From a virus: a DNA stretch of 28,094 nucleotides. The stretch covers positions 1 to 28,094 of IMG/VR virus record IMGVR_UViG_3300027608_000123. The stretch is one strand, 5' to 3'. Under the pieces are notes generated by a model that was not told the origin of the DNA, searched no databases, and worked only from the letters and a program-made list of their open reading frames with translations. A program made the position numbers and the translations under genes. Numbering within the stretch: the stretch's first letter is position 1; every line of letters begins with the position of its first letter. Shown piece after piece: positions 225-28,014 of the stretch.

Positions 225-1523
225 TTAAATACTATTTTTCAATTCTTTAACTTCTGCACGTAATTCTTTGATACCTTCGATTAATAATGGAACTAATTTT
301 TCGTAATGTACTGTTAAATATTTATTGTTGATTGGTGCAGGTACAACTATGTCACAGTCAGGAAGTTGTTTTTGAACTTGTTGTGCAGACACACCAACTT
401 GACGATGTTTCGTATACCCCAATAATTCTGCTAATTCATTTTCTTCATAATAGAAACCACTTAGTTCATCAATTTTGTCTAGTGCATTTTCAATATTACC
501 AAGTTTAGTTTTTAATCTATCATCAGAATATCCCGCAGTAACACCACCTGACGCACGAATTTCTCCGGTTATAGTACTGGCTGCAACACCAATGCCTAAT
601 GAGTTAAATTGAGTATTTGAAGTAGTAGCAATTCCTTGGGGAGGAGAATATGTAGCCGGTTTATTCAAAATCTGTGCGAGGCCGCTGGTAGCATTAAAAT
701 CAGCATTTACTGGCGCTGTTATCGTAGGTCTTCCAGACAAATCTCCGTATTCTCCAGTTGTTGCAACACTCGCTAAACCAGAAACTGCACCAGCACCAAT
801 TGCAATGCTAGTTGCCGATGCAGCTGTGACTCTACCTTTTGCATCTACTGTAATTGTAGGAACTGCTGAAGCTGTACCATACGTTGTTGCGATTACACCA
901 GAATCGGCCAATCGTGCAGTGTTTAATGTACCAGCAATAATAAAATTAGCATTTGTTGTATCTGTAGTTGCTGAGGCTGCTAATCCTGAAACTGCACCAG
1001 AAGCAATTGCGATTGCAACATTAGATGCGCTAGTTATTCTGCCTTTTGCATCAACAGTTACTCGACTAACACTTGAAGCTGTACCATACGTTGTTGCGCT
1101 TACACCAGAATCGGCCAATCGTGCAGTGTTTAATGTACCAGCAATAATAAAATTAGCATTTGTTGTATCTGTAGTTGCTGAGGCTGCAAATGTTGGATAA
1201 CCAGTAATTTGTGCTGTTGTGATTTGTATTGGAACGTTTGCGGCGGATTTAATTCGACCTTTAGCATCCGTAACAATTGCAATAGCAGTATTTGTATTGC
1301 CTCTACCAGCACTTGCGGTTAAATCTGCTTGTGCTGGTAATCTTGCATCCGCCAAAGTACCAGAACCTAATTGGCTTGTATCAATACTGATGTTATTATT
1401 TCCCGCACTAACAATTCTACCCTGTGCATCAACAACTATTGATAAAGAAACTGAAGCACTACCATAATATCCTGATGTTACAGCTGTATTTGCTAGTACT
1501 GACGGCGTAATCTTTGTTGTCAT
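225..1523 (-). CDS. Tail fibre protein with C-terminal S74 intramolecular chaperone
   Basis: This 432-residue protein is built mostly of fibre-like repeats with the motif VDAKGRI(T/V)SA followed by NTARLADSGV. Two copies of one 69-residue unit (around residues 113-219) are almost identical. The last ~100 residues are an S74 peptidase, the chaperone domain of endosialidase-type fibres: SDDRLK starts at S333, VGVSAQ is near 376-381, and a coiled-coil tail (EKLVPLLIEGIKELRAEVKEL) closes the protein. In this family the domain trimerises the fibre and then usually cuts itself off at the conserved Ser. The start codon overlaps the upstream fibre stop as ATGA, which suggests translational coupling. 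It probably acts at the distal end of the tail in host recognition. The receptor cannot be inferred. The protein is short for a complete long fibre and may be an accessory or tip subunit. Confidence 0.8.
   Translation of the reverse strand: MTTKITPSVLANTAVTSGYYGSASVSLSIVVDAQGRIVSAGNNNISIDTSQLGSGTLADARLPAQADLTASAGRGNTNTAIAIVTDAKGRIKSAANVPIQITTAQITGYPTFAASATTDTTNANFIIAGTLNTARLADSGVSATTYGTASSVSRVTVDAKGRITSASNVAIAIASGAVSGLAASATTDTTNANFIIAGTLNTARLADSGVIATTYGTASAVPTITVDAKGRVTAASATSIAIGAGAVSGLASVATTGEYGDLSGRPTITAPVNADFNATSGLAQILNKPATYSPPQGIATTSNTQFNSLGIGVAASTITGEIRASGGVTAGYSDDRLKTKLGNIENALDKIDELSGFYYEENELAELLGYTKHRQVGVSAQQVQKQLPDCDIVVPAPINNKYLTVHYEKLVPLLIEGIKELRAEVKELKNSI
867..1187. repeat. 114-bp direct repeat, two copies, inside the short fibre gene
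   Basis: Positions 867-980 and 1074-1187 are identical except for one base (A versus C in gcgAtta/gcgCtta). The offset is 207 bases, exactly 69 codons, so the reading frame is kept. The intervening spacer has diverged more. This pattern points to a recent duplication or gene conversion in the fibre shaft. Confidence 0.9.
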
Positions 1524-4500
1524 TTAATTTGTCCCTTTAATGTTTCCATCTGAGCCTTTAATTCTTCAATTTCTTTTTCGGAATCAAGAACTCGCTGTGC
1601 AAGTTTTATACAAGCTACTAAAGCTGCATTTCCATATGCAACAGATAATTTACCTTCTGCATCTTCCATAATAGCGTGTTCAAGTAATGGACGCAAAGAT
1701 TGTGCTGAAACACCAACTTGTGTAATCTCTTGGTCTGTACGGTCATAGATACCATGTTTAACTTCTGCAAGTTTATCGACAAAGTTTTCTGGAAGTTCAC
1801 GCCAATTTTTCTTTACACGTTCATCTGAAAAAGCGGTGATATTACCAAGTACGGTTAAAGCACTAGTTGAACCTTTAAATAGAGCAATTTCAGTGCCTTT
1901 ACCATTTCCGACACGAAAATCTCTAAAATAAGCAAGCGCATCGTTATAACCACGATAGTTGATCCACATATCAGCATCATTTGCCGCAGAACCAAATCCA
2001 CTATTTAAAGTATTAGCGTTAGTTGGTGAAATATAAATGTTTGAAGAACCGTATAAAGAAGCAGCACTAATACCCCAATTGCCTGAAGCACCTGTTCCTG
2101 TCAGTGTTGGTGCATATGTATTGTAGTTGCTTGAATTTAAATATGTCACCCAAGCGCCATAAACTCCAGCACTTATGTTTCTGGTTCTAAGTGCGTTTGC
2201 ATTATCTTCCCAACCCCATGCAACCTGTGTTCCCCATGCATTAGTTGCGTTGGTGTGTCTGAAATTCTCTTGGAACCACCATCCTGCGGTAGGAGCGTTA
2301 GTGCCTCCATTAACATCTCCAGCAATTTTCACACTACCAGCAAGAGTGTTTGTAAAATCTGTATTCCAATTACCAGAAAAAATTTGTGTTTTATTATTAC
2401 TATACTCAGAATAAGTAGATGTACCACCATTAGCCGGTGCAGAACCTGCTGTTGTTGCATAACTAACACTTTTAACAGAGTCTGCTGTGTTATCAACGCT
2501 ACCTAAACCAACCTCAGACTTTGTGTATGAAGGTTTTGCAGCTGTTTTTGCCCATGCATATACGTCTGTTGCTGGTGCTCCACCCGCTGTTGCAGCATAA
2601 CTAACACTCAATGAAGTGGTTTGATATGTACGTAGGTTTGCACTGGTGCCTGTATCAATTGATCCCAAAACATAAGTTGGACTTGCTGTAACTTTTTCAT
2701 GTGCTGAAGTGTTAATATATTTAACACTTGTGTTGCCCGTTGCATCTGTACGAACAATAGTATTTGCACTTTGGTTTCTTCCCTCACTACCGTATGCTTG
2801 TACAGATAAACCACCAGCTGTAACTGCATTTCCATCAATAGATACACCACTTAATGTTTGTGAAGCAGATCCACGATTCAATGCAATTCCAGTTGTACCC
2901 ACATATACTGTGGAGTTCGCAAGTGTTGTACTTGGAATTGTACCAAGAGATAGTTTATTCGCAGATAACGATGTTATAAATGATGGATTCGCATAATCCA
3001 CTGTTGAATATAAACCATTTGTTACTGTGCCTGCATTACCTGTTATACTCTGTGTAACTGTATAACCCGCATTTGCTCTTGCCGACACAAAACTGGTTGT
3101 TGCAAAAGAAGTGTTTGAGATTGCAGTTGGCATAGTCAAACCAATAACATCTCCAACGAATGTACCGCCACTTTTTGGCATCTTTCTAGATTCTATGTCA
3201 TCAATCGCAAGTTGAATTGTGGTTGCGCCTGCGTCAATAGAACCAGTTCTTGGTCCGTATGTGATATTGTTTGCATAATACTCATATGTTGTATAACCAT
3301 CAACTTCAACTAAAATAGTATCACCAGTATAAGGTGCTGTAGACATTGTAACTTTTGGCAACAGTGGGTTGCTGTTGTTTAGTGTGTATTCAGATTCTAA
3401 TTGTCGAACACCGTTGATGTATATTCTTACTTGGTTTGCTTGACTGAACGTTGGTGTTGCGAACAGTGTTGTCGTTGAATCGCCCGAATATGACAATCGA
3501 CTTGATGTTATTCTTGTACCAGGTGTTGCACCGCCGCCACCTCCCGTGCCGGCTGAAGTCCAATAGTAATTACCTGCGCCGGCAGTTGCAAGAACATAAC
3601 CAGAAGTACCTGCACCTCCTGTTGCAGCTCGAACCATATTGTCAAATGATGATGATAGTGAGGTGTAACCTGTACCACCATATGGTGCAGTCAAAGGACT
3701 TGTTAATGATAAAGCAGCAAAAGTTGGTGAAGCACCAACTTGTAAATCTTGTGAAGTGCTAACTGCAAATGTATTTGATGAAGTTGCATAAAAAACAATA
3801 CCATTATTACTCTTAAGTGTCAATGAAGCATCAGTTGGTGATACAGAACCGGTTGTACCTTTAATTTGACTTGTTGCTGAATTTGCTTTGTTAAAAGCAC
3901 TATTTGCGTGATTAAAAGCTGGTAGAATTTGTGGAGCAACATTGTTTGCCGCTTCAAATGAAGCATTAGCGTGTGCAAAAGCAGTATTTGCAAATAAACC
4001 ACTGATGTTCTGTGATGTATAAGATGAATTGGCTCTAACAAAAGCACCATTCGCAAACGAATCTGCTGTATCAATACGTTCTTTTAAGAAAGTATTTGCT
4101 GTTTGAATGTTGTTATTTAATGTATTTGCAGCTGCTGAAGAAGCGGCTAAAATTGTACTTGTTGATGTTGTTGAACCACTGATTTGTTGTTCTGTAATGA
4201 TTCTATAATAGTCGCCTACTGTTGTAACGTCTTTGATATCAAAATAATCTTGTGCCTCATTCCAACGAATTTGTGCATTTGCAAAAACGGAATTTGCTAA
4301 TTGTAATGCATTATTTGTTCTATAAACAGTATAATAAGATGTTCGATTTGGTTGATTAGAACTTAAAATGAATTCATTTATGTTATAAACTGTTTTTCCA
4401 TTGATAACAAAATTACCACCAACAGAGAAATTATTTTCTACCTCAAGACTACTAAAAAATGCTGAAGCATCATTTGCATCAATTAAATTTGTAACTGTAA

Positions 4501-5971
4501 TAGTTGGTGTCCAAACAATATTATTTGCATATAATGTGTTTGAACGCACCGTATCAGAAGCAAAAGAATTCGTTGTGCGAGAATAGGTGTTTGCTAATAA
4601 GATATTTGTGGATGTTGTACCAGTAACAGACATTGTTCTGGTATTGGCTACACTATTTGCTTGTAATGTGTCTGTGTATGTGGTGTTGAATATTGATATA
4701 CTTGCAGTATTAACTGAACTATTTGCTTGTAATGTGTCGGTGAATGTTGTACCAGTAACAGACATTGTTCTGGTATTGGCTACACTATTTGCTTGTAATG
4801 TGTCTGTAGATGTTGTATCAGTAACAGACATTGTTCTGGTGTTGGCTGAAGTATTAGATTGCAAACTATTTGTGAATGTCGTACCGGTGACCGACATTGT
4901 TCTGGTATTGGCTGAAGTATTTGCTTGTAATGTGTCAGTAAAAGATGTTCCTGTCACCGATAATGTTGTTGTATTTACTAAATTATTGGCTTGTAATGTG
5001 TCAGTAAAAGATGTTCCTGTCACCGATAAAGTTTCTGTATTAACTGTAGCATTAGCTTGTAAAACATTTGTAAAAGTATTACCAGTTACAGATAAAGTTT
5101 CTGTATTAACTGTAGCATTAGCCTGAACACTATTTGCATATAGAGTCCACATAATACTTGCATTAGAAGTGTTTGTTGAACTATTTGCTTGCAAAAAATT
5201 TGTGTAAGTTGTATTTACAACAGACAGAATTGAAGTATTTACAGAAGTATTAGATTGCAAACTATTTGTGAATGTCGTACCGGTGACCGACATTGTTCTG
5301 GTATTGGCTGAAGTATTTGCTTGTAAAACATTTGTATGAGTTGTACCACTAACCGATGCTTCTGCGGTAAGTATTTCATTATTAGACTTTAAGGTTTGTG
5401 TCAACACATATGTATTGGCTTGCACATAATTTGTGTAAATTGAACTATTCGCAACAGCAACATCGGTTAAAATGCTAGTGTTGGCTTGAAGTTTATTTGC
5501 ATAAACACTGTGTACAATAGATGCGCTTGTTGTATTAACTGTATTATTTGCTTGTAGTGTTCTTGTAATTGTTCCATAAGAAACTGCAACATTACCACCA
5601 ATTACTGCATTATTTGCAACAATAAATGAGTTACCTGAACCTAAAACTTCTAAAGTTTTGCCAACATTTGCATTGCCGGTTGTTGCAAGACTTAATGTTG
5701 AATTTGTGAAATAAGCTTGACCTTGTACATCTAAATTTTTCTCTATTAATGCGTAGGAACCAATACCTTGTACTATCAAAGCCTTCTGTACAATTACATT
5801 ACCGTTTGACTGTAATGCACTTTTTGTTGATTCTGAAAGATATAATGTACCAGAATCTTTACTGTAATCGTCTTTACCTAAAGTGTTATTCTCAGCAATC
5901 AAAGCATCTGTCGCAACCATCCAATCACCGAATGTGTTGGCATAACTTAATGTGGTAACTGTATTAGCCAT
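1520..5971 (-). CDS. Long tail fibre protein with S74 chaperone domain
   Basis: A 1483-residue fibre. An N-terminal section of ~135 residues may attach it to the tail. It is followed by about 16 copies of a 22-residue repeat anchored on LQAN (residues ~138-460). Next come a short ANSAF-type stretch like that in the 796-residue fibre-like protein (~625-690), a glycine-rich linker, and shaft modules with NQVRIYINGVRQLES, KSGGTFVGDV and GLGSVDNTADS, all common in phage fibres. A probable tip section contains GWWFQENFRH and WGTQVAWGW. The last ~100 residues are an S74 chaperone: SDERVKKN with S1382, VGVSAQSL at 1420-1427, and a terminal coiled coil. By family analogy it is a trimer whose chaperone is removed by self-cleavage before S1382. 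The start has an AAAGG Shine-Dalgarno overlapping the stop of the small coiled-coil gene. It is the best candidate for the main host-range fibre. T4 gp37-like function is inferred from architecture, not from alignable sequence. Confidence 0.85.
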   Translation of the reverse strand: MANTVTTLSYANTFGDWMVATDALIAENNTLGKDDYSKDSGTLYLSESTKSALQSNGNVIVQKALIVQGIGSYALIEKNLDVQGQAYFTNSTLSLATTGNANVGKTLEVLGSGNSFIVANNAVIGGNVAVSYGTITRTLQANNTVNTTSASIVHSVYANKLQANTSILTDVAVANSSIYTNYVQANTYVLTQTLKSNNEILTAEASVSGTTHTNVLQANTSANTRTMSVTGTTFTNSLQSNTSVNTSILSVVNTTYTNFLQANSSTNTSNASIMWTLYANSVQANATVNTETLSVTGNTFTNVLQANATVNTETLSVTGTSFTDTLQANNLVNTTTLSVTGTSFTDTLQANTSANTRTMSVTGTTFTNSLQSNTSANTRTMSVTDTTSTDTLQANSVANTRTMSVTGTTFTDTLQANSSVNTASISIFNTTYTDTLQANSVANTRTMSVTGTTSTNILLANTYSRTTNSFASDTVRSNTLYANNIVWTPTITVTNLIDANDASAFFSSLEVENNFSVGGNFVINGKTVYNINEFILSSNQPNRTSYYTVYRTNNALQLANSVFANAQIRWNEAQDYFDIKDVTTVGDYYRIITEQQISGSTTSTSTILAASSAAANTLNNNIQTANTFLKERIDTADSFANGAFVRANSSYTSQNISGLFANTAFAHANASFEAANNVAPQILPAFNHANSAFNKANSATSQIKGTTGSVSPTDASLTLKSNNGIVFYATSSNTFAVSTSQDLQVGASPTFAALSLTSPLTAPYGGTGYTSLSSSFDNMVRAATGGAGTSGYVLATAGAGNYYWTSAGTGGGGGATPGTRITSSRLSYSGDSTTTLFATPTFSQANQVRIYINGVRQLESEYTLNNSNPLLPKVTMSTAPYTGDTILVEVDGYTTYEYYANNITYGPRTGSIDAGATTIQLAIDDIESRKMPKSGGTFVGDVIGLTMPTAISNTSFATTSFVSARANAGYTVTQSITGNAGTVTNGLYSTVDYANPSFITSLSANKLSLGTIPSTTLANSTVYVGTTGIALNRGSASQTLSGVSIDGNAVTAGGLSVQAYGSEGRNQSANTIVRTDATGNTSVKYINTSAHEKVTASPTYVLGSIDTGTSANLRTYQTTSLSVSYAATAGGAPATDVYAWAKTAAKPSYTKSEVGLGSVDNTADSVKSVSYATTAGSAPANGGTSTYSEYSNNKTQIFSGNWNTDFTNTLAGSVKIAGDVNGGTNAPTAGWWFQENFRHTNATNAWGTQVAWGWEDNANALRTRNISAGVYGAWVTYLNSSNYNTYAPTLTGTGASGNWGISAASLYGSSNIYISPTNANTLNSGFGSAANDADMWINYRGYNDALAYFRDFRVGNGKGTEIALFKGSTSALTVLGNITAFSDERVKKNWRELPENFVDKLAEVKHGIYDRTDQEITQVGVSAQSLRPLLEHAIMEDAEGKLSVAYGNAALVACIKLAQRVLDSEKEIEELKAQMETLKGQIK
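4588..5560. repeat. 22-codon tandem repeats of the long tail fibre
   Basis: About 16 units of 66 bp encode variants of NTxTLSVTGTTFTDxLQAN. Some stretches are identical over long lengths: 4612-4675 equals 4744-4807 (64 bp, two units apart), and 4848-4930 equals 5244-5326 (83 bp, six units apart). Every offset is a multiple of 66, so recombination between copies would keep the frame and change only the shaft length. Confidence 0.88.
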
Positions 5972-21573: not shown

Positions 21574-21966
21574 TTATCTGTTTCTCTCTAAAAAAACTGT
21601 TACAGTAGTTGATTGTGTTGCATTTGCTATAAAAAATGTCATGGTAACATCATATGCATTTTTATCTGGATATGGTTGTACTGTAACATTTTTCAGATTT
21701 ATTCTAGGTTCATAGTTGGTTATTGCAACAGAAATTTCTTTTTCCAATGCCGATGCAGTCATAAATGAGATATTTTCAAACAAAAGTGCATCTATATTTG
21801 ATCCGAAGGCTGGGTTCCAAGGTTTTTCAAATTTCTTAGTCAATAATATGTTTCTGACCGAACGTATAATTGCTTGACTGTCATAACTCAAAGCAATATC
21901 ATTCACTGTTGGCCTCTTGGCCATGGTGAAGTCTATGTCGGAGTAAAGTTTTTGTATGGTTGCCAT
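21574..21966 (-). CDS. 25: Baseplate wedge subunit gp25
   Basis: A 130-residue protein, typical for the gp25 family (T4 132 residues). It shows the family hallmarks: RSVRNILLTKKFEKPWNP (35-52), FGSNIDALLFE (54-64), and the conserved EPR triplet at 86-88 (NYEPRINLKNVTV). gp25 joins gp6 and gp53 at the sheath-initiating centre of the wedge and shares a fold with type VI secretion TssE. It is the first gene after a 94-bp intergenic region that contains the conserved element and a CATAAATA box, so it may head its own late transcript. No good Shine-Dalgarno is seen before the ATG. Confidence 0.95.
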   Translation of the reverse strand: MATIQKLYSDIDFTMAKRPTVNDIALSYDSQAIIRSVRNILLTKKFEKPWNPAFGSNIDALLFENISFMTASALEKEISVAITNYEPRINLKNVTVQPYPDKNAYDVTMTFFIANATQSTTVTVFLERNR

Positions 21967-22060: not shown

Positions 22061-22885
22061 TCATTGTGCAAGCCTTGTTTTGGCCTTTTCTGTACCAATT
22101 AGATTGTTCATCAAATACTTTCCAGTCTCACCTAAATCAGTAAGTTTCTTGGTTTCATTATATCCACTAATAAAAGCCTTGACGTTGGTATAAAAAGTTA
22201 CATCAGAAGTTCTTCTGTAATCCATATAATTGGTTAAATTTGTTATAAATGTATTGATTGTTGTTATCATTGAATTACTTAAATTTGATGATGTGATGAT
22301 ATGTCCAGTACTATTGGCCATTGGACCGATACTATTTAAAACACTAGATTCATATGTTATTAATGTATTACTATTTGCACTCAGCTGCGGTTCTATCAAC
22401 AGACTGGTCATGCTGCCCATAATTGGTGCGCTGTTTATAACACCATCTGTTTGATTTGTAATGTATATTAGAGTTCTACCACTACCTAAAACCATATTCA
22501 GATAAGGATTAACCAGGTCTTCACCCTCAAAAAGAGTTACACCTGAGAGTCTATTTGTATGGTTTAACATTTCAACTGCCGAATTTACAAGGTTTGCTGC
22601 TGCAGCTGCAGTATTGGCTAAGTTGATCACACCATTTGATCCAACATTAGCCAATTCTTGAGCACTTGTCTTAATTGACAAGGCCACACTTGCTATTGGA
22701 TTTTGATAGTAACCACCAAAATCTCTATTTGCGATATCTATTACCTGCCATGGCTCTACAAAGGCCGGCATAGAATTCATATGATCTTGTGTATCTGTTG
22801 ATAATATCTGTATGCGTCCATTCGGGTCATCGAAATTATAATTGAAAGTTTGCCAAAGTATTGCTGAATTCGCTATTGTTGTCAT
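22061..22885 (-). CDS. Unrecognised virion-region protein (274 residues)
   Basis: I do not recognise a family with a defined function. The protein has no signal peptide and no clear membrane helix. Residues ~85-125 are alanine/asparagine-rich and probably helical (NLANTAAAAANLVNSAVEML). The centre is hydrophobic and glycine-rich (LNMVLGSGRTLIYITN, then IMGSMTSLLIEP), and the rest is rich in S, T and N. It is real: an AAGGA Shine-Dalgarno overlaps the spike stop codon, and it sits in tight series between the spike gene and gp25. A minor structural or hub-associated protein is the reasonable inference from position. It is the last gene before the conserved intergenic element. Confidence 0.65.
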   Translation of the reverse strand: MTTIANSAILWQTFNYNFDDPNGRIQILSTDTQDHMNSMPAFVEPWQVIDIANRDFGGYYQNPIASVALSIKTSAQELANVGSNGVINLANTAAAAANLVNSAVEMLNHTNRLSGVTLFEGEDLVNPYLNMVLGSGRTLIYITNQTDGVINSAPIMGSMTSLLIEPQLSANSNTLITYESSVLNSIGPMANSTGHIITSSNLSNSMITTINTFITNLTNYMDYRRTSDVTFYTNVKAFISGYNETKKLTDLGETGKYLMNNLIGTEKAKTRLAQ

Positions 22886-22896
22886 AATTATGTTCC

Positions 22897-23769
22897 TTAT
22901 ACAAATAAACTAAATGGTGTTCCTGTTGCTCCGTGTGGTGCTGGATGCATGTGTGAATTAAATATATTAGAATTTATCATGTCAGACATTATTACTGACT
23001 TCAATATACCAATGTTACCTAAAGAAAAATTACCTATTGGTGCATTCATAGCTATGAATGCATTGACTGTTCCTAGTGCATTTATTTGGCCTGGAATTGC
23101 AATTGGTGATGCTGGTGTTGGGAAACCAGCGGATACACCACCACATGTGGTGAATCCATCTAAACCAGCAAACACACCTCCACCAAATGCATTACCAGCT
23201 GTGACTCTAGATTCTGCGGTCATAACATCCGCACTTACCATACCACGCACTTCCAAGTCTGATGATACCGAAACGTGGTCTGCTGCTCTTAGGAGCAATG
23301 TTCCACCAAAATTTTCAGATGCTGATAGTTCTACATCTCCATCACCTGAAATGACCAATGCACCTTTGGACCTAATACTAGTATCACCACCAACCAACAT
23401 ATCAAAATTACCACCAACTTGAACTCCTAAATTACCACCAACAGCTAGATGACAATTGCTGTCTATTTGTATGTTACAATTACCTGATATTCGGACTCCG
23501 TTATTTTGTACAATAATTGTGTAACCGTTACCAAAGACTTTGTGTACCTCGCTGCCATCAGGATGCATCTCAATGAATGTTCCTACACGATGAGATAATC
23601 GAATACGTTCTCTGGTCGGTGTGTCATCCATTTCAAGCTTGTGACCAGCTTCTGTTTGAGTAACATTATTGTATGGATATATTGGTTGATAGTCCGTGTT
23701 GGCCGCAGATTCGGGTTCTGTCCAGGCGCCTTCAACGAAAGGCATTTGATCTGAGTATATTGTTGTCAT
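22897..23769 (-). CDS. Central spike, gp5 C-terminal / gpV-like, with HxH tip motif
   Basis: A 290-residue protein. Residues ~38-75 carry a VgrG/gp5-type sequence (TEAGHKLEMDDTP, then RIRLSHRVGTFIEMHPDGSE). Residues ~76-160 are short regular beta repeats (GNGYTIIVQNNGVRISGN, CHLAVGGNLGVQVGGNF) of the triple-stranded beta-helix kind. A glycine/alanine-rich part and a C-terminal NSHMHPAPHG follow, with H273 and H275 forming an HxH motif. In P2 gpV and phi92 gp138 an HxH near the C-terminus binds iron at the spike tip; by analogy this may do the same. It corresponds to the needle portion of T4 gp5, here separated from the OB domain and lacking any lysozyme domain. Its place among hub genes fits a membrane-piercing role. 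No Shine-Dalgarno is obvious before the ATG. Confidence 0.78.
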   Translation of the reverse strand: MTTIYSDQMPFVEGAWTEPESAANTDYQPIYPYNNVTQTEAGHKLEMDDTPTRERIRLSHRVGTFIEMHPDGSEVHKVFGNGYTIIVQNNGVRISGNCNIQIDSNCHLAVGGNLGVQVGGNFDMLVGGDTSIRSKGALVISGDGDVELSASENFGGTLLLRAADHVSVSSDLEVRGMVSADVMTAESRVTAGNAFGGGVFAGLDGFTTCGGVSAGFPTPASPIAIPGQINALGTVNAFIAMNAPIGNFSLGNIGILKSVIMSDMINSNIFNSHMHPAPHGATGTPFSLFV

Positions 23770-23780
23770 AATTTAAGGAG

Positions 23781-24680
23781 TTAAGGAGTTGAGTTACTAA
23801 TTTCTTTGGGTAGTATACTTGCCGCAACACTATCGTTTGAAGGTAGCGTTGATTCATAAGCAGAAATTGTTTGATTTGCGGCATTCAGGTCTGCCTGTGA
23901 AACTGGAACTGCAAAACCGGCAGTAGCATAACCAGCAATTGTAACTGCGCCTACAGCAATAGCTGATGCTGTTTTAACTGTGGTGACTGCTTCGTTTATT
24001 GTATTTCTTGTTTCGGTAATAAGTGCAGCTGCACCTGTCGGATCTGATCCTGTTCCTAATTCGCTTAAGAAATCAGTAAACACATTTTTTACCAATTTTA
24101 AAAACTTAGCTAAACATTCAGCCAAAAGTTTTAATAATCTTGCAGGTAGACTTATGATCCATTGAATGATTGCTCTGATTTTAACTATGTATGCAAGAAC
24201 ATATTTTTGAAAATCGAGAACTTTTTTCAAATAATATTGAATGGTTTTCAACTCTTTCTGGATTGTTCTTAATCTAGCAATGATTGAAGTAAAAAAACCT
24301 GTTTTATCAGTAAACCCTAATGTTCTCATAACAAGACGTATGCCTTCTCTAATTACTCCAGCACTGGCTTTTATAAACTCTTTCAAATATACATTTTTAC
24401 GCATCTCATCTATGAAACCACAAACGTGTGTTCTTTTGGTGTTTGTATAATGTGTTGATGTTCCGAATATTTTACCTCTTGCTGCAGCGGGAATTGATGG
24501 TGTACCGGCAATCCGCCCATCATTTCCGAATCTACCTGGAGGACTTAAATTTGCTTCAGCACACTGCGCTGGCAAATCTTTAGGAGAATCTTTTGGATAT
24601 GTAAATTGTGATTGTGAAATGATATACGCTTGATATTCTTGTGCGGTAACTTCTGTACCATTGGGTAATGTAAATGCCAT
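23781..24680 (-). CDS. Unrecognised helical protein between the OB and spike genes
   Basis: The start at 24680 (MAFTLPNGTEV, 299 residues) is chosen over an upstream in-frame ATG at 24719 because a strong AGGAGG lies 5 bases before it, overlapping the end of the OB-fold gene. Residues 1-80 are polar with a proline-rich segment (NLSPPGRFGNDGRIAGTP). Residues ~90-215 are basic amphipathic helices (RLRTIQKELKTIQYYLKKVL, IIQWIISLPARLLKLLAE, KFLKLVKNVFTDFL). A hydrophobic Ala/Gly stretch (SAIAVGAVTIAGYATAGFAV) lies near residue 240. No known enzyme motif is visible. The place between the two halves of gp5 suggests a hub component, and the helices could associate with membrane. That is inference; similar unnamed proteins occur in marine T4-like phages as far as I recall. 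Confidence 0.68.
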   Translation of the reverse strand: MAFTLPNGTEVTAQEYQAYIISQSQFTYPKDSPKDLPAQCAEANLSPPGRFGNDGRIAGTPSIPAAARGKIFGTSTHYTNTKRTHVCGFIDEMRKNVYLKEFIKASAGVIREGIRLVMRTLGFTDKTGFFTSIIARLRTIQKELKTIQYYLKKVLDFQKYVLAYIVKIRAIIQWIISLPARLLKLLAECLAKFLKLVKNVFTDFLSELGTGSDPTGAAALITETRNTINEAVTTVKTASAIAVGAVTIAGYATAGFAVPVSQADLNAANQTISAYESTLPSNDSVAASILPKEISNSTP

Positions 24681-24681
24681 A

Positions 24682-25017
24682 TTATCCTCCTGTGTCCGTA
24701 ACTTCTGTGCTGGTTGCATATTCTGGTTTAACTATACCAGGTAAAACACCCATCATGATAGGCGCCTGTGCCGATTCACCATCCATAAAGAAACCAACAA
24801 TCCATTCACCTAACATAGGTGAAGAAAAGGATTTCGAATTGTTTAATGGATACATTGGTAAGGCCCAAGGTAGGTCCTCTGTAGGCAAATTCATTTTGTT
24901 ATCTGTGTGCCATCCAAAAATCCTGACACGGCACCTACCCAGTCCTAGTGGGTCTCCTCTAGACTCTAAAATTCCAACCCACCATATGAAACCATCTTTA
25001 CCAATAAAATTATTCAT
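24682..25017 (-). CDS. 5: Baseplate hub OB-fold protein, gp5 N-terminal domain only
   Basis: A 111-residue protein covering the OB-fold domain of T4 gp5. Motifs in order: WWVGILESRGDPLGLGRCRV (12-31), IFGWHTDNK, LPTEDLPWALP (44-54), GEWIVGFFMDG and MMGVLPG. In T4 this domain sits on the gp27 trimer and is fused to a lysozyme and a beta-helix. Here the frame stops right after the OB domain, with a TAA overlapping the Shine-Dalgarno of the next gene. The spike is a separate gene downstream. Both this gene and its successor have good ribosome binding sites (AGGA here), so the split looks like real gene architecture rather than a sequencing frameshift. Confidence 0.9.
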   Translation of the reverse strand: MNNFIGKDGFIWWVGILESRGDPLGLGRCRVRIFGWHTDNKMNLPTEDLPWALPMYPLNNSKSFSSPMLGEWIVGFFMDGESAQAPIMMGVLPGIVKPEYATSTEVTDTGG

Positions 25018-25029
25018 TTAATCCTCATT

Positions 25030-26319
25030 TTATATTACCACTGACTGACTTGGATGTTTTTGTTCCATAGTGTTTTTCGCCAACTCCAAAACTGTTTGAA
25101 AAACACCTTGTGCTTGTATAATATGTCTTAACGCAGTCACAAGATATTTACCGGAATAGTATGTATCTTCGGTCACTGAATTACCTTCATTAATACCTAA
25201 AGAAGGTAATGAAACATAAATTATTTTTCCTACAGTTATATCACTATTGCCTGGAATTATAGCTTTCATTATTGTGCGGTTGGCTAATGCAACTTGTGCT
25301 ATTCTATTTGGAATATATGTTTCTGCACGAATATCTTTTGCAACACTTTTTAGATCCTGCTTTATATAGTCTGTTTCGGATTGTGTTGAATTTCCTAATG
25401 CCAATTTTAAATTACTCTCATACATTTCTTCCGAATATTTATTAAATCTATTTAATGAGGTACCGGCAGAATCGTAACCACTTAAATCACCTTTAGTGAA
25501 ATATGTTATCGTTTTTGTCCTTGTTATGGCGTCAATTGTAATCAATTTACTTGCATAGATTCCAGCACTTGTTGCACTTAATGAATCGAAAGTTTTTATA
25601 AATTCATAATCCAAAATGGTGAAATAGTTATCAAGTTGCACACCAGCTAAATCTGATGGTTGATACTTATATACTGCAAAAGGATTTTTATCAAACAAAG
25701 TTTTCAATGAGTTAAAATAGAAACCTTTTTTGGTTTCAAAGAATAACATATCGGCCCCTGCACCTTCAGCTGGTAAAGCATAATTAGATAACCAACTTAT
25801 TGCTTCTAATGGTTTTAAACTTGGTATGACAAATTTATAGGTTCCGTAACTTTCCTGTATACCTTTAATTCTACCAATTTTCACACCCATACCTTGATTT
25901 TCATCATACAAAATTCTAGCAATCATGGTGCTTATATCCATTGCTTTGAAGGATCTGTTTATTTTTAATTGTTCTGATATAAACAATTCTTCAGAAGTGA
26001 AGTACATTGTGAAATGTTCTGAATTTTTATTACCTGTAGGTTTTCTATTGCCAATTTTGTATATTCTAAATTTTCTTTGATCTACTTCACCATCTGCAAA
26101 TTTCCTGTATCCCATATCAAGTATTTCAGAACCATCTAATTTTAATTTTTCAATTAATCCAAGAGCATCCTTCAATATTACATTGCCTGAACAAGTAAAT
26201 GAAAACAAGTCCTCAAATAGATTTAGTTCCACAAACATTAATTTGAGTTTGATAGATTGACCATTGTCAATAATAATATTAATCCATTCTAAACTAAAAT
26301 CTTGTGCGTAATTAGCCAT
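25030..26319 (-). CDS. 27: Baseplate hub subunit, gp27-like
   Basis: A 429-residue protein opening with a beta-rich tail-tube-like domain (DFSLEWINIIIDNGQSIKLK, FEDLFSFTCSGNVILKDALG) and later FRIYKIGNRKP and FTMYFTSEELF. The remainder has the mixed alpha/beta character of hub proteins (FVIPSLKPLEAISWLSNYAL, DLAGVQLDNYFTILDY, VGKIIYVSLPSLGIN, SGKYLVTALRHII). T4 gp27 (391 residues) forms the trimeric hub that adapts the six-fold tube to the three-fold spike. Position directly before the gp5-like OB protein supports the call. The start overlaps the end of gp53 by 8 bases. The sequence resemblance to gp27 is moderate; it could be called only a hub protein. Confidence 0.7.
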   Translation of the reverse strand: MANYAQDFSLEWINIIIDNGQSIKLKLMFVELNLFEDLFSFTCSGNVILKDALGLIEKLKLDGSEILDMGYRKFADGEVDQRKFRIYKIGNRKPTGNKNSEHFTMYFTSEELFISEQLKINRSFKAMDISTMIARILYDENQGMGVKIGRIKGIQESYGTYKFVIPSLKPLEAISWLSNYALPAEGAGADMLFFETKKGFYFNSLKTLFDKNPFAVYKYQPSDLAGVQLDNYFTILDYEFIKTFDSLSATSAGIYASKLITIDAITRTKTITYFTKGDLSGYDSAGTSLNRFNKYSEEMYESNLKLALGNSTQSETDYIKQDLKSVAKDIRAETYIPNRIAQVALANRTIMKAIIPGNSDITVGKIIYVSLPSLGINEGNSVTEDTYYSGKYLVTALRHIIQAQGVFQTVLELAKNTMEQKHPSQSVVI

Positions 26320-26944
26320 TTGTTTCCATCAATGTCATAAATTCTTTTTCCAATTGTCCAACATAATCTTTATTCAATAATTGTATACTTCTTTTAGATT
26401 CATTTAAATCATATTCATAATCAAAATTTGTAACTACTTTGGTCTCAATTAACATAGTTATATTTTCATTGGGTAAATTGTATGTATATGTTATTGAACC
26501 ATTTATTAAAGTTTGTGATAAGGTTTGATACTCTTCCGTTGAAATTTCATATTCTTCTACAGTGGTAGTAATATCATTATCCGTACCAGATGTTCGATTT
26601 GTTGTGGTTATGACTTTTTCATAGTGGTGTAAATTGTTTTTGGTATTACCCAACTTAGATTCAATAAAACTATCAAATTTACTACTACTTAATGGCCAAT
26701 CCCATTGTGGATCTATAATTTGATTTGAATATAATACTATCCAAAAACGATTCATGTCACCATAATATTTGTGAGCAACAATTTCGGGAGTGTCATCGTC
26801 TTTTATATCATATTGATAATAAGCGAGAACATTTCTCAAAATACTCGGAATAATATTGGCTCTAGTAATTAAATTGGTGTATATGGTGGATATATTATTA
26901 TTATCTCTGTATAGAATTTTTGGTAAAGCTTTGAAATATTGCAT
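26312..26944 (-). CDS. 53: Baseplate wedge subunit gp53
   Basis: A 210-residue protein (T4 gp53 is 196) with the gp53 signature: YFKALPKILYRDN at the start, then DTPEIVAHKYYGDMNRFWIV (51-70) and NQIIDPQWDWPL (74-85). The central part has a LysM-like fold in T4. gp53 clamps the inner wedge proteins gp6, gp7 and gp25, and joins neighbouring wedges. It starts 2 bases after the gp48-like stop codon and ends inside the start of the hub gene, consistent with coupled translation. T4 likewise places gene 53 close to gene 4 and gene 5. Confidence 0.92.
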   Translation of the reverse strand: MQYFKALPKILYRDNNNISTIYTNLITRANIIPSILRNVLAYYQYDIKDDDTPEIVAHKYYGDMNRFWIVLYSNQIIDPQWDWPLSSSKFDSFIESKLGNTKNNLHHYEKVITTTNRTSGTDNDITTTVEEYEISTEEYQTLSQTLINGSITYTYNLPNENITMLIETKVVTNFDYEYDLNESKRSIQLLNKDYVGQLEKEFMTLMETNG

Positions 26945-26946
26945 TT

Positions 26947-28014
26947 TTAATATCCTTCCATGATTTCATCTCTACCAATAAGTGAAGTTTCTTGAAATTC
27001 AAGAGTCAATATTGTTTGTACCGGTGCACCATCCGTGTGAGTTGTCCATCCATTTGGTGCATAATTAACATCAATATTGTTAATAACGCATTTTTGTAAT
27101 TTTGGTAAATGTTTATTGTGAGTGCCATTCATTCTAAAATCAATTTCAAAGAGTGCTGGTGGAACCCAAAACATATTTTTATTAAGACTTTCATTTCTTT
27201 TTGGTGCCGCATACATTCTAAATTTTTGAATTATTTGTTTAATTTGTTCAGCTTCAGCTTGTGAGTATGGAGTGAATGTAAAAGACATACTGAATTGCCT
27301 AAATTCAACACCCTGAAACAATACTTGTTTTTGTGGATTGAAAACATAACCTGCTCTATTCAAAGCAACCTGAACTGCGGTTTGGGGGCCACCAGTTCCA
27401 TCACCAATAAAATTTGTTGCTGACTTAATCATATTTCCCAACAATGGTAATGTACCTAGAGCCGAAGCAACACTAGTACTATCATCATAAGCTATAGCAG
27501 ATGATAAATTAAAAGCCTCAGGCATATATAGACTTATGTGACCAACATATTCTCCAGCTGGTTGTTTAAGAAAGCCACTATTTTTATCAATGAAACCTAC
27601 ACCAGTCACCAACGCATCAGTACCAAAATTCATGACTGACGTAACTGTATCTTTAGCGAATTGGAGACCAGTAGTTTCGTCCCATTTAGTTGTGAGCGCA
27701 CCAAGTTTATCCTCAAGAACATCTACACCACCGGTTACAGCCTTTTTAAGTGTTGCTGTATCAGCTTTGCTGACAGCATCCATTACAGACGCAGCTTGTT
27801 GTTGAACTATATTATTCAATTCCTCCAATGTAACTTCTTTTATTTCATAAATTCGGAAATTAACAGAATGTGATTTCGTTGCACTTTCTAAGTCTCTTGG
27901 ATACTTATACATGAATATTCCACCAACTTTATCCAAGTCTGATAGTGGACCATCAAATATCCCGCCCGGTATATTAATTCCGCCAATTGATGTTGGTATT
28001 GAGATTATTGCCAT
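26947..28014 (-). CDS. 48: Baseplate tail-tube cap protein, gp48-like
   Basis: A 355-residue protein (T4 gp48 is 364). The C-terminal third has the recognisable tube-like segment FQGVEFRQFSMSFTFTPYSQ followed by AEAEQIKQIIQKFRMYAAP (residues ~233-271), then a typical ending PVQTILTLEFQETSLI. gp48 and its relative gp54 form the layers on the hub on which tail-tube polymerisation starts. Residues ~65-125 form a long helical region. This is the first gene of the leftward block, 33 bases from the divergent gene on the plus strand. gp54 is a related alternative name; gp48 is preferred for length. Confidence 0.72.
   Translation of the reverse strand: MAIISIPTSIGGINIPGGIFDGPLSDLDKVGGIFMYKYPRDLESATKSHSVNFRIYEIKEVTLEELNNIVQQQAASVMDAVSKADTATLKKAVTGGVDVLEDKLGALTTKWDETTGLQFAKDTVTSVMNFGTDALVTGVGFIDKNSGFLKQPAGEYVGHISLYMPEAFNLSSAIAYDDSTSVASALGTLPLLGNMIKSATNFIGDGTGGPQTAVQVALNRAGYVFNPQKQVLFQGVEFRQFSMSFTFTPYSQAEAEQIKQIIQKFRMYAAPKRNESLNKNMFWVPPALFEIDFRMNGTHNKHLPKLQKCVINNIDVNYAPNGWTTHTDGAPVQTILTLEFQETSLIGRDEIMEGY

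Follow-up and report, generated by a model that had tools for sequence, protein, structure and literature searches.

Separate OB, middle, and needle genes in the place of T4 gp5, and a putative domain-swapping lysin in the tail region of related uncultured phages

In an uncultured T4-type phage the counterpart of gp5 is encoded in pieces, as an OB domain, a 299-residue protein (p299), and a beta-helix needle, none of which carries a recognizable wall-cutting domain. The longer relatives encode a putative lysin in the tail region, and the most probable reading of the data is of a T4-type hub in which gp5 has no part in cutting the cell wall and a separate, tail-delivered lysin does so.

Results

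The window (the entire 28,094 b of one virus record) is a fragment of an uncultured T4-type phage. Its gene array lies on the minus strand and begins with a tail-tube cap protein, gp53, a gp27-like hub protein, the OB gene, p299, the needle, and an adjoining protein of 274 aa (p274). Next come gp25, gp6, a gp7-like protein, one protein of 796 aa, gp8, and finally three large proteins. The baseplate tail-tube cap protein (26947..28014, minus strand, as are all genes below) was assigned from phrog_230 (1.3e-46) and the layout of relatives, and the gp53-like (26312..26944) and gp25-like (21574..21966) wedge proteins from PF11246 (2.9e-7) and PF04965 (3.4e-14), respectively. The gp27-like hub protein (25030..26319; 429 aa) matched phrog_350, a 'tail protein' (2.3e-67), and a phiM12 protein annotated as gp27-like (blastp, 2e-16). 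The OB gene (24682..25017; 111 aa), p299 (23781..24680), and the needle gene (22897..23769; 290 aa) had been described in a first-pass annotation as separate genes, and all three frames are open at these positions.

The OB gene encodes the N-terminal OB domain of gp5 alone, based on PF06714 (26.8 bits against a cut-off of 25) and phrog_694 (2e-32), and tblastn matched it in 2196 of the 50,697 phage records searched, with a gp5 annotation on most of the matches listed. The needle gene encodes the C-terminal beta-helix spike, with residues 26–142 aligned to T4 gp5 382–500 (E = 2.5e-13) and a match to phrog_430 (9.3e-36). T4 gp5 consists of an OB domain (1–129), a lysozyme (174–339), and a needle (389–575), and is cut at 351/352 with both parts held in the particle (PMC7650644). 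Needle residue 26 corresponds to position 382 of T4 gp5, and needle residue 18 to position 379 of another gp5 (9f4a), such that, if the proteins are collinear, needle residue 1 would fall near T4 357–362 and the needle would start just past the T4 maturation cut.

No peptidoglycan hydrolase was detected with Pfam and PHROGs among the 15 gene-array proteins that made up the hydrolase scan of the window, and for these 15 the earlier claim that the window holds no lysozyme-like domain stands. The sole hydrolase-type match in the array was a weak one between needle residues 26–76 and the endolysin phrog_181 (0.059), and no hydrolase profile matched p299 in the sequence-profile searches for a lysozyme domain between OB and needle. 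The name 'lysozyme' attached to gp25 is a legacy label. Two proteins at 225–5971 (432 and 1483 aa) have Peptidase_S74 matches near their C-termini; these are fibre chaperones and not wall hydrolases. The lysozyme family PF00959 was found in none of 28 related records, many of which are fragments.

The division of gp5 is conserved across relatives. Scanning IMG/VR with p299 identified 28 loci, and profile scans identified 39 for p299 and 78 for p274. Of the first 28 p299 loci, 27 have the OB gene, 27 the needle, and 24 p274, and as far as seen the missing genes were cut by contig ends; in L027 a 262-b gap separates OB and p299. After redundant copies had been merged and OB frames truncated at a contig start excluded, the IMG/VR loci L001–L145 and the window provided 49 distinct OB and p299 sequence pairs, 38 of them split and 11 fused (L109/L110, L111, L112, L116, L117, L120, L123, L125, L127/L128, L129/L130, and L133). 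A tree of gp27 and gp25 placed L005 as the sister of the window and contained 24 split and 10 fused rows in an ingroup of 34, with at least three changes of state; OB and needle were on separate genes in all 34 rows. The tree is the product of a quick search and has long branches, and the direction of change between split and fused is not settled by it. Among the outgroups, OB and needle are in one chain in Mosig, phiM12, and OC and are split in Melnitz.

The p299 protein matched no Pfam family over cut-off and no PHROG, and three queries returned no tblastn match in the 50,697 phage records. Its longest frame spans 312 aa with a start at 24719, within the OB gene. Identity to the p299 of the window is 87% in L005 and 57% in the long contig G029, and the version in L028 (6936–8048) is 370 aa, approximately 70 residues longer, with a variable N-terminus. 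A PDB profile search returned 43 weak matches. These are largely helical proteins, coiled-coil designs among them, and include a single glycosidase (endoglycosidase F1, at 0.28); a lysozyme within p299 was rejected for lack of a match by Pfam, PHROG, or PDB profile. The predicted model is helical and of low confidence (pLDDT 47.8), which limits the structural claim to the helical nature of the protein. Of the 18 strongly amphipathic segments among 8855 overlapping 18-residue segments from the 15 window proteins, 15 are in p299, and the p299 core is net positive in all 39 aligned rows (from 44 extracted stretches).

Because OB and p299 form one chain in the fused relatives, p299 is probably the helical middle part of gp5, in the place held by the lysozyme in T4. 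The first-pass annotation had seen an inserted helical protein that might have taken a hub role. The term 'inserted' is misleading, as p299 would occupy the lysozyme-domain place and in some family members forms one chain with OB, and the suggested hub role gains support from these same gene fusions, with a single OB–p299 chain in 11 of the 49 pairs.

The p274 protein (22061..22885) is a conserved helical protein adjoining the needle, known from a family of 78 listed loci in IMG/VR, of which 53 distinct stretches were extracted and 43 aligned. It matched no Pfam family over cut-off, no PHROG, and no tblastn relative in the 50,697 phage records. The AlphaFold2 (AF2) model (pLDDT 88.4) is helical with two short strands; lysozymes are also largely helical, so the helicity of p274 alone decides nothing. 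None of the fold matches was significant and none was a lysozyme among the best 50 of 464 (PDB) and of 361 (BFVD). The best VIA-align match (Z 9.5, to IncA) is at a level the tool warns of for helical bundles, and similarity to the DUF7217 proteins from phages Wc4 and 3M (TM 0.42–0.50, E of about 0.05–0.06) is a lead only. A lysozyme within p274 was rejected, with no Pfam or PHROG match and none among the fold matches listed. The absence of a hub lysozyme would, as stated in advance, be overturned if either p299 or p274 proved to have a lysozyme fold, and none emerged from the profiles of either protein or from the listed fold matches of p274. In one relative (L127, 2925–5165) p274 forms the N-terminal part of a 746-aa subtilase protein (PF00082, 4.4e-22) that adjoins the needle. 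The p274 homologues in L128, L129, and L131 are of the same length, with the subtilase call made for L127 only.

In the longer relatives, a putative lysin gene adjoins gp26 on the strand opposite to the hub genes, where gp26 was recognized by Pfam (PF12322) in G029 only and by size and place in the other records. The lysin has approximately 110 conserved N-terminal residues, a long linker rich in A, K, and E (in some also P), a variable middle, and a conserved C-terminus that ends in DRPAHQRK or similar. Lysins whose N-domains are identical or nearly so can differ in their middles; L022, L024, and G029, for example, have a common N-domain and different middles. Scanning for the N-domain identified 36 loci, with the swapped middles in lysins L161–L193. 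Frames were read for 35 (omitting L194, a 21-residue match), of which 29 were complete: 26 (505–754 aa) have the conserved C-terminus and three distant ones are without it.

Among 16 lysins scanned for known families (L024 by Pfam only), nine matched muralytic families, three were weakly VgrG3-like, two matched only phrogs of unknown function, and two matched no muralytic family. Four of the nine exceeded Pfam cut-offs, with SLT middles in L017 (3.4e-11) and L170 (6.1e-8) and GH19 middles in L026 (1.2e-6) and L181 (1.1e-5). The other five have middles that match endolysin phrogs (L171, 3.2e-13; L180, 7.2e-24; L188, 1.3e-18) or the transglycosylase phrog_4067 (L165, 3.7e-7; and L005, the tree sister of the window, 2.9e-5). 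The VgrG3-like matches (L011, L024, and L186) were about 1e-4, below cut-off. The middles in G029 and L189 matched only phrogs of unknown function, with phrog_37890 in both, and phrog_37890 also matches L171, which itself matches endolysin phrog_90. The lysins of L191 and the distant L193 matched no muralytic family, and PDB sequence searches with three lysin middles returned nothing useful.

Compared with OC and Mosig tail proteins encoded in the corresponding region, the lysin N-domain reached E values of only 0.5 and 0.22, respectively. OC632 matches tape-measure phrogs, and phiM12 gp122, from the same region, was noted as tape-measure-like. A 479-aa neighbor of the lysin (L137, 3457–4896) may be a tape measure by its place, and the L026 copy of this neighbor weakly resembles the profile of the lysin N-domain (E = 6e-4).

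In the relatives the lysin is located beyond the cap-gene end of the array, past gp26, and the window ends before that position. The presence of the lysin in the phage of the window is extrapolated from these relatives, as no near-identical record extends to the lysin position. The earlier suggestion that the enzyme may be encoded elsewhere thus agrees with the relatives, including L005, where the gene is beyond gp26, while the record of the window itself stops short of the place.

G029 (L136–L144) is 179,754 b in length, encodes a tmRNA and 26 tRNAs, and is taken as complete because of its exact 127-b terminal repeat. At least two further wall hydrolases are present, a SleB-like Hydrolase_2 protein and a GH19 protein, a minimum count based on Pfam scans of 129 of 235 picked frames (L138–L140, frames <75 aa, and others were omitted), with 25 families listed out of 39 and out of 33 in two of the three scans. 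Due to these two other hydrolases, the tail-region lysin of G029 need not be its endolysin. A DruA-like protein is also encoded by G029. Across 12 long records, Hydrolase_2 was found in six, SLT in one, and PF08291 in none.

Discussion

In the likely arrangement, drawn from homology and gene fusion, the OB part would dock on the gp27-like hub, p299 would form a helical collar or linker joining OB and needle, and the needle would sit at the tip and pierce the outer membrane. Cutting of the wall would fall to no part of gp5 and instead to a protein of its own, with its gene near gp26 and the putative tape-measure gene. This lysin may be delivered with the tail, presenting an interchangeable muralytic domain on a long flexible linker between conserved ends.

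The order of OB domain, middle, and beta-helix needle, beside a gp27-like hub protein, is that of T4 gp5/gp27. The two systems differ in that T4 gp5 is one chain with a maturation cut and the window has three genes, and in that the middle is a lysozyme in T4 and predicted to be helical here. T4 gp5 is a trimer docked on gp27; in the window a gp27-like gene adjoins the OB gene. Elements of the divided hub are already present in known genomes. OB and needle are likewise on separate genes in Melnitz (EXVC044M, a Methylophilales phage of the Kyanoviridae), though the Melnitz OB gene, unlike that of the window, is extended by a VanY-like stretch (below cut-off at 1.1e-4), and its needle gene by one with very weak M15 similarity (0.04–0.07). 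In the Pelagibacter phage Mosig (EXVC030M), gp5 is one 361-aa chain of OB and needle with approximately 70 residues between the two matches, too few for a lysozyme. The p299 profile had no match in Melnitz or Mosig proteins.

In five marine cyanophages, S-ShM2 among them, gp5 has an OB domain followed by a hydrophobic middle, helical by eye, in a single chain of 794–857 aa, compared to the three genes of the window. The S-ShM2 protein (L032, 7962–10445), annotated as baseplate hub and tail lysozyme, has only the OB domain over Pfam cut-off, and Pfam detects no hydrolase in it. Comparison of p299 with this middle reached 0.0004 at best (MbCM1; hmmsearch with filters off, 15 sequences), with helical stretches out of order, and hhalign gave a 33% probability over 21 columns only. 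The Sinorhizobium phage phiM12 and the Ochrobactrum phage OC share a similar order around the cap, gp53, gp27-like, gp5, and gp25 genes, and both have gp5 as one chain; in phiM12 the gene that follows encodes an M15 peptidase, and in OC gp5 itself contains M15 and Phage_lysozyme2 domains.

The spike of Anabaena myophage A-1(L) consists of an OB domain and beta-structure, with no enzyme domains described, and it is the hub protein of A-1(L), unlike the hub here, that bears lysozyme, endoglucanase, and peptidase domains (PMC10966104). Tail-associated lysins with transglycosylase domains in tape-measure proteins (PMC10194240) likewise have the muralytic domain in a tail-region gene. The lysin of the relatives differs from these in its long A/K/E/P linker and in the differing catalytic families held between conserved ends. 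In a published comparison of phages, gp5 was noted to be strongly divergent, with no tape measure identified (PMC7029224). Within the literature searched, as far as its accessible text extends, we found no description of a three-way gp5 division, the p299 family, or a domain-swapping lysin.

Several other explanations bear on these observations. The split could be thought to originate from frameshifts in metagenome assembly or from wrong gene starts, as IMG/VR contigs are unfinished genomes and the OB frame of L018 (65 aa) really is broken, but with 38 distinct split pairs, a GGAGGA directly before the p299 ATG, and the same split in the terminally repeated contig G029, an artefact is exceedingly improbable. 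A more substantial challenge is that the wall is crossed mechanically by an enzyme-free hub and that the tail-region lysin of the relatives is a lysis-time endolysin and not a virion protein. The placement of the lysin in the virion is an inference, Mosig gp5 has no room for a lysozyme, and the contractile phiCD508 was reported to be without enzymatic domains for penetration (PMC11948020). Nonetheless, the lysin gene adjoins gp26 in G029, the matching place in phiM12 is flanked by gp26/gp51 and the tape-measure-like gene, and the two other hydrolases of G029 would be able to serve lysis. The lysin also has a long spacer, which is unusual in endolysins. On this balance, we regard purely mechanical entry as rather unlikely.

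Two further proposals assign a different role to proteins of the array. As a separate chain, p299 could exit the hub when the tail contracts and target the inner membrane, in which case it would be a releasable, membrane-active helical protein that replaces the hub lysozyme, with wall cutting left to the domain-swapped lysin. The amphipathic segments and net positive core would be compatible with such a role, but a trimeric helical bundle would likewise give amphipathic helices, and we view this proposal as unlikely; if true, the split near the T4 cleavage site would remove the need for proteolytic maturation. Alternatively, p274 could be a present or former carrier of enzymes, a helical adaptor that bears fused enzymes in some relatives and has lost them here. 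The subtilase domain joined to p274 in L127 and the M15 peptidase (8.1e-19) in the phiM12 gene after gp5 point in this direction. Conversely, profile comparison showed no similarity between this phiM12 protein (gp110) and p274 (E = 0.62), the substrate of a subtilase is protein and not peptidoglycan, and just three of the 53 distinct p274 stretches come from 746-aa proteins, the rest being from frames of ≤304 aa, all of which makes the carrier role very unlikely. The preferred reading continues to be a gp5 in pieces without wall-cutting activity, served by a separate lysin that would act at entry.

T4 gp5, with its lysozyme built in, serves as the model puncturing device, and the phages described here keep the OB domain and needle while the place of the lysozyme is otherwise filled. 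With the chain divided near the cut made by T4 itself and a candidate wall enzyme encoded nearby, these phages offer a natural test of the purpose of gp5 cleavage and of the gp5 lysozyme. Judging by the example of S-ShM2 gp5, the name 'baseplate hub and tail lysozyme' has probably been over-transferred. The lysins of the relatives further indicate that uncultured phages may place several wall enzymes on one scaffold.
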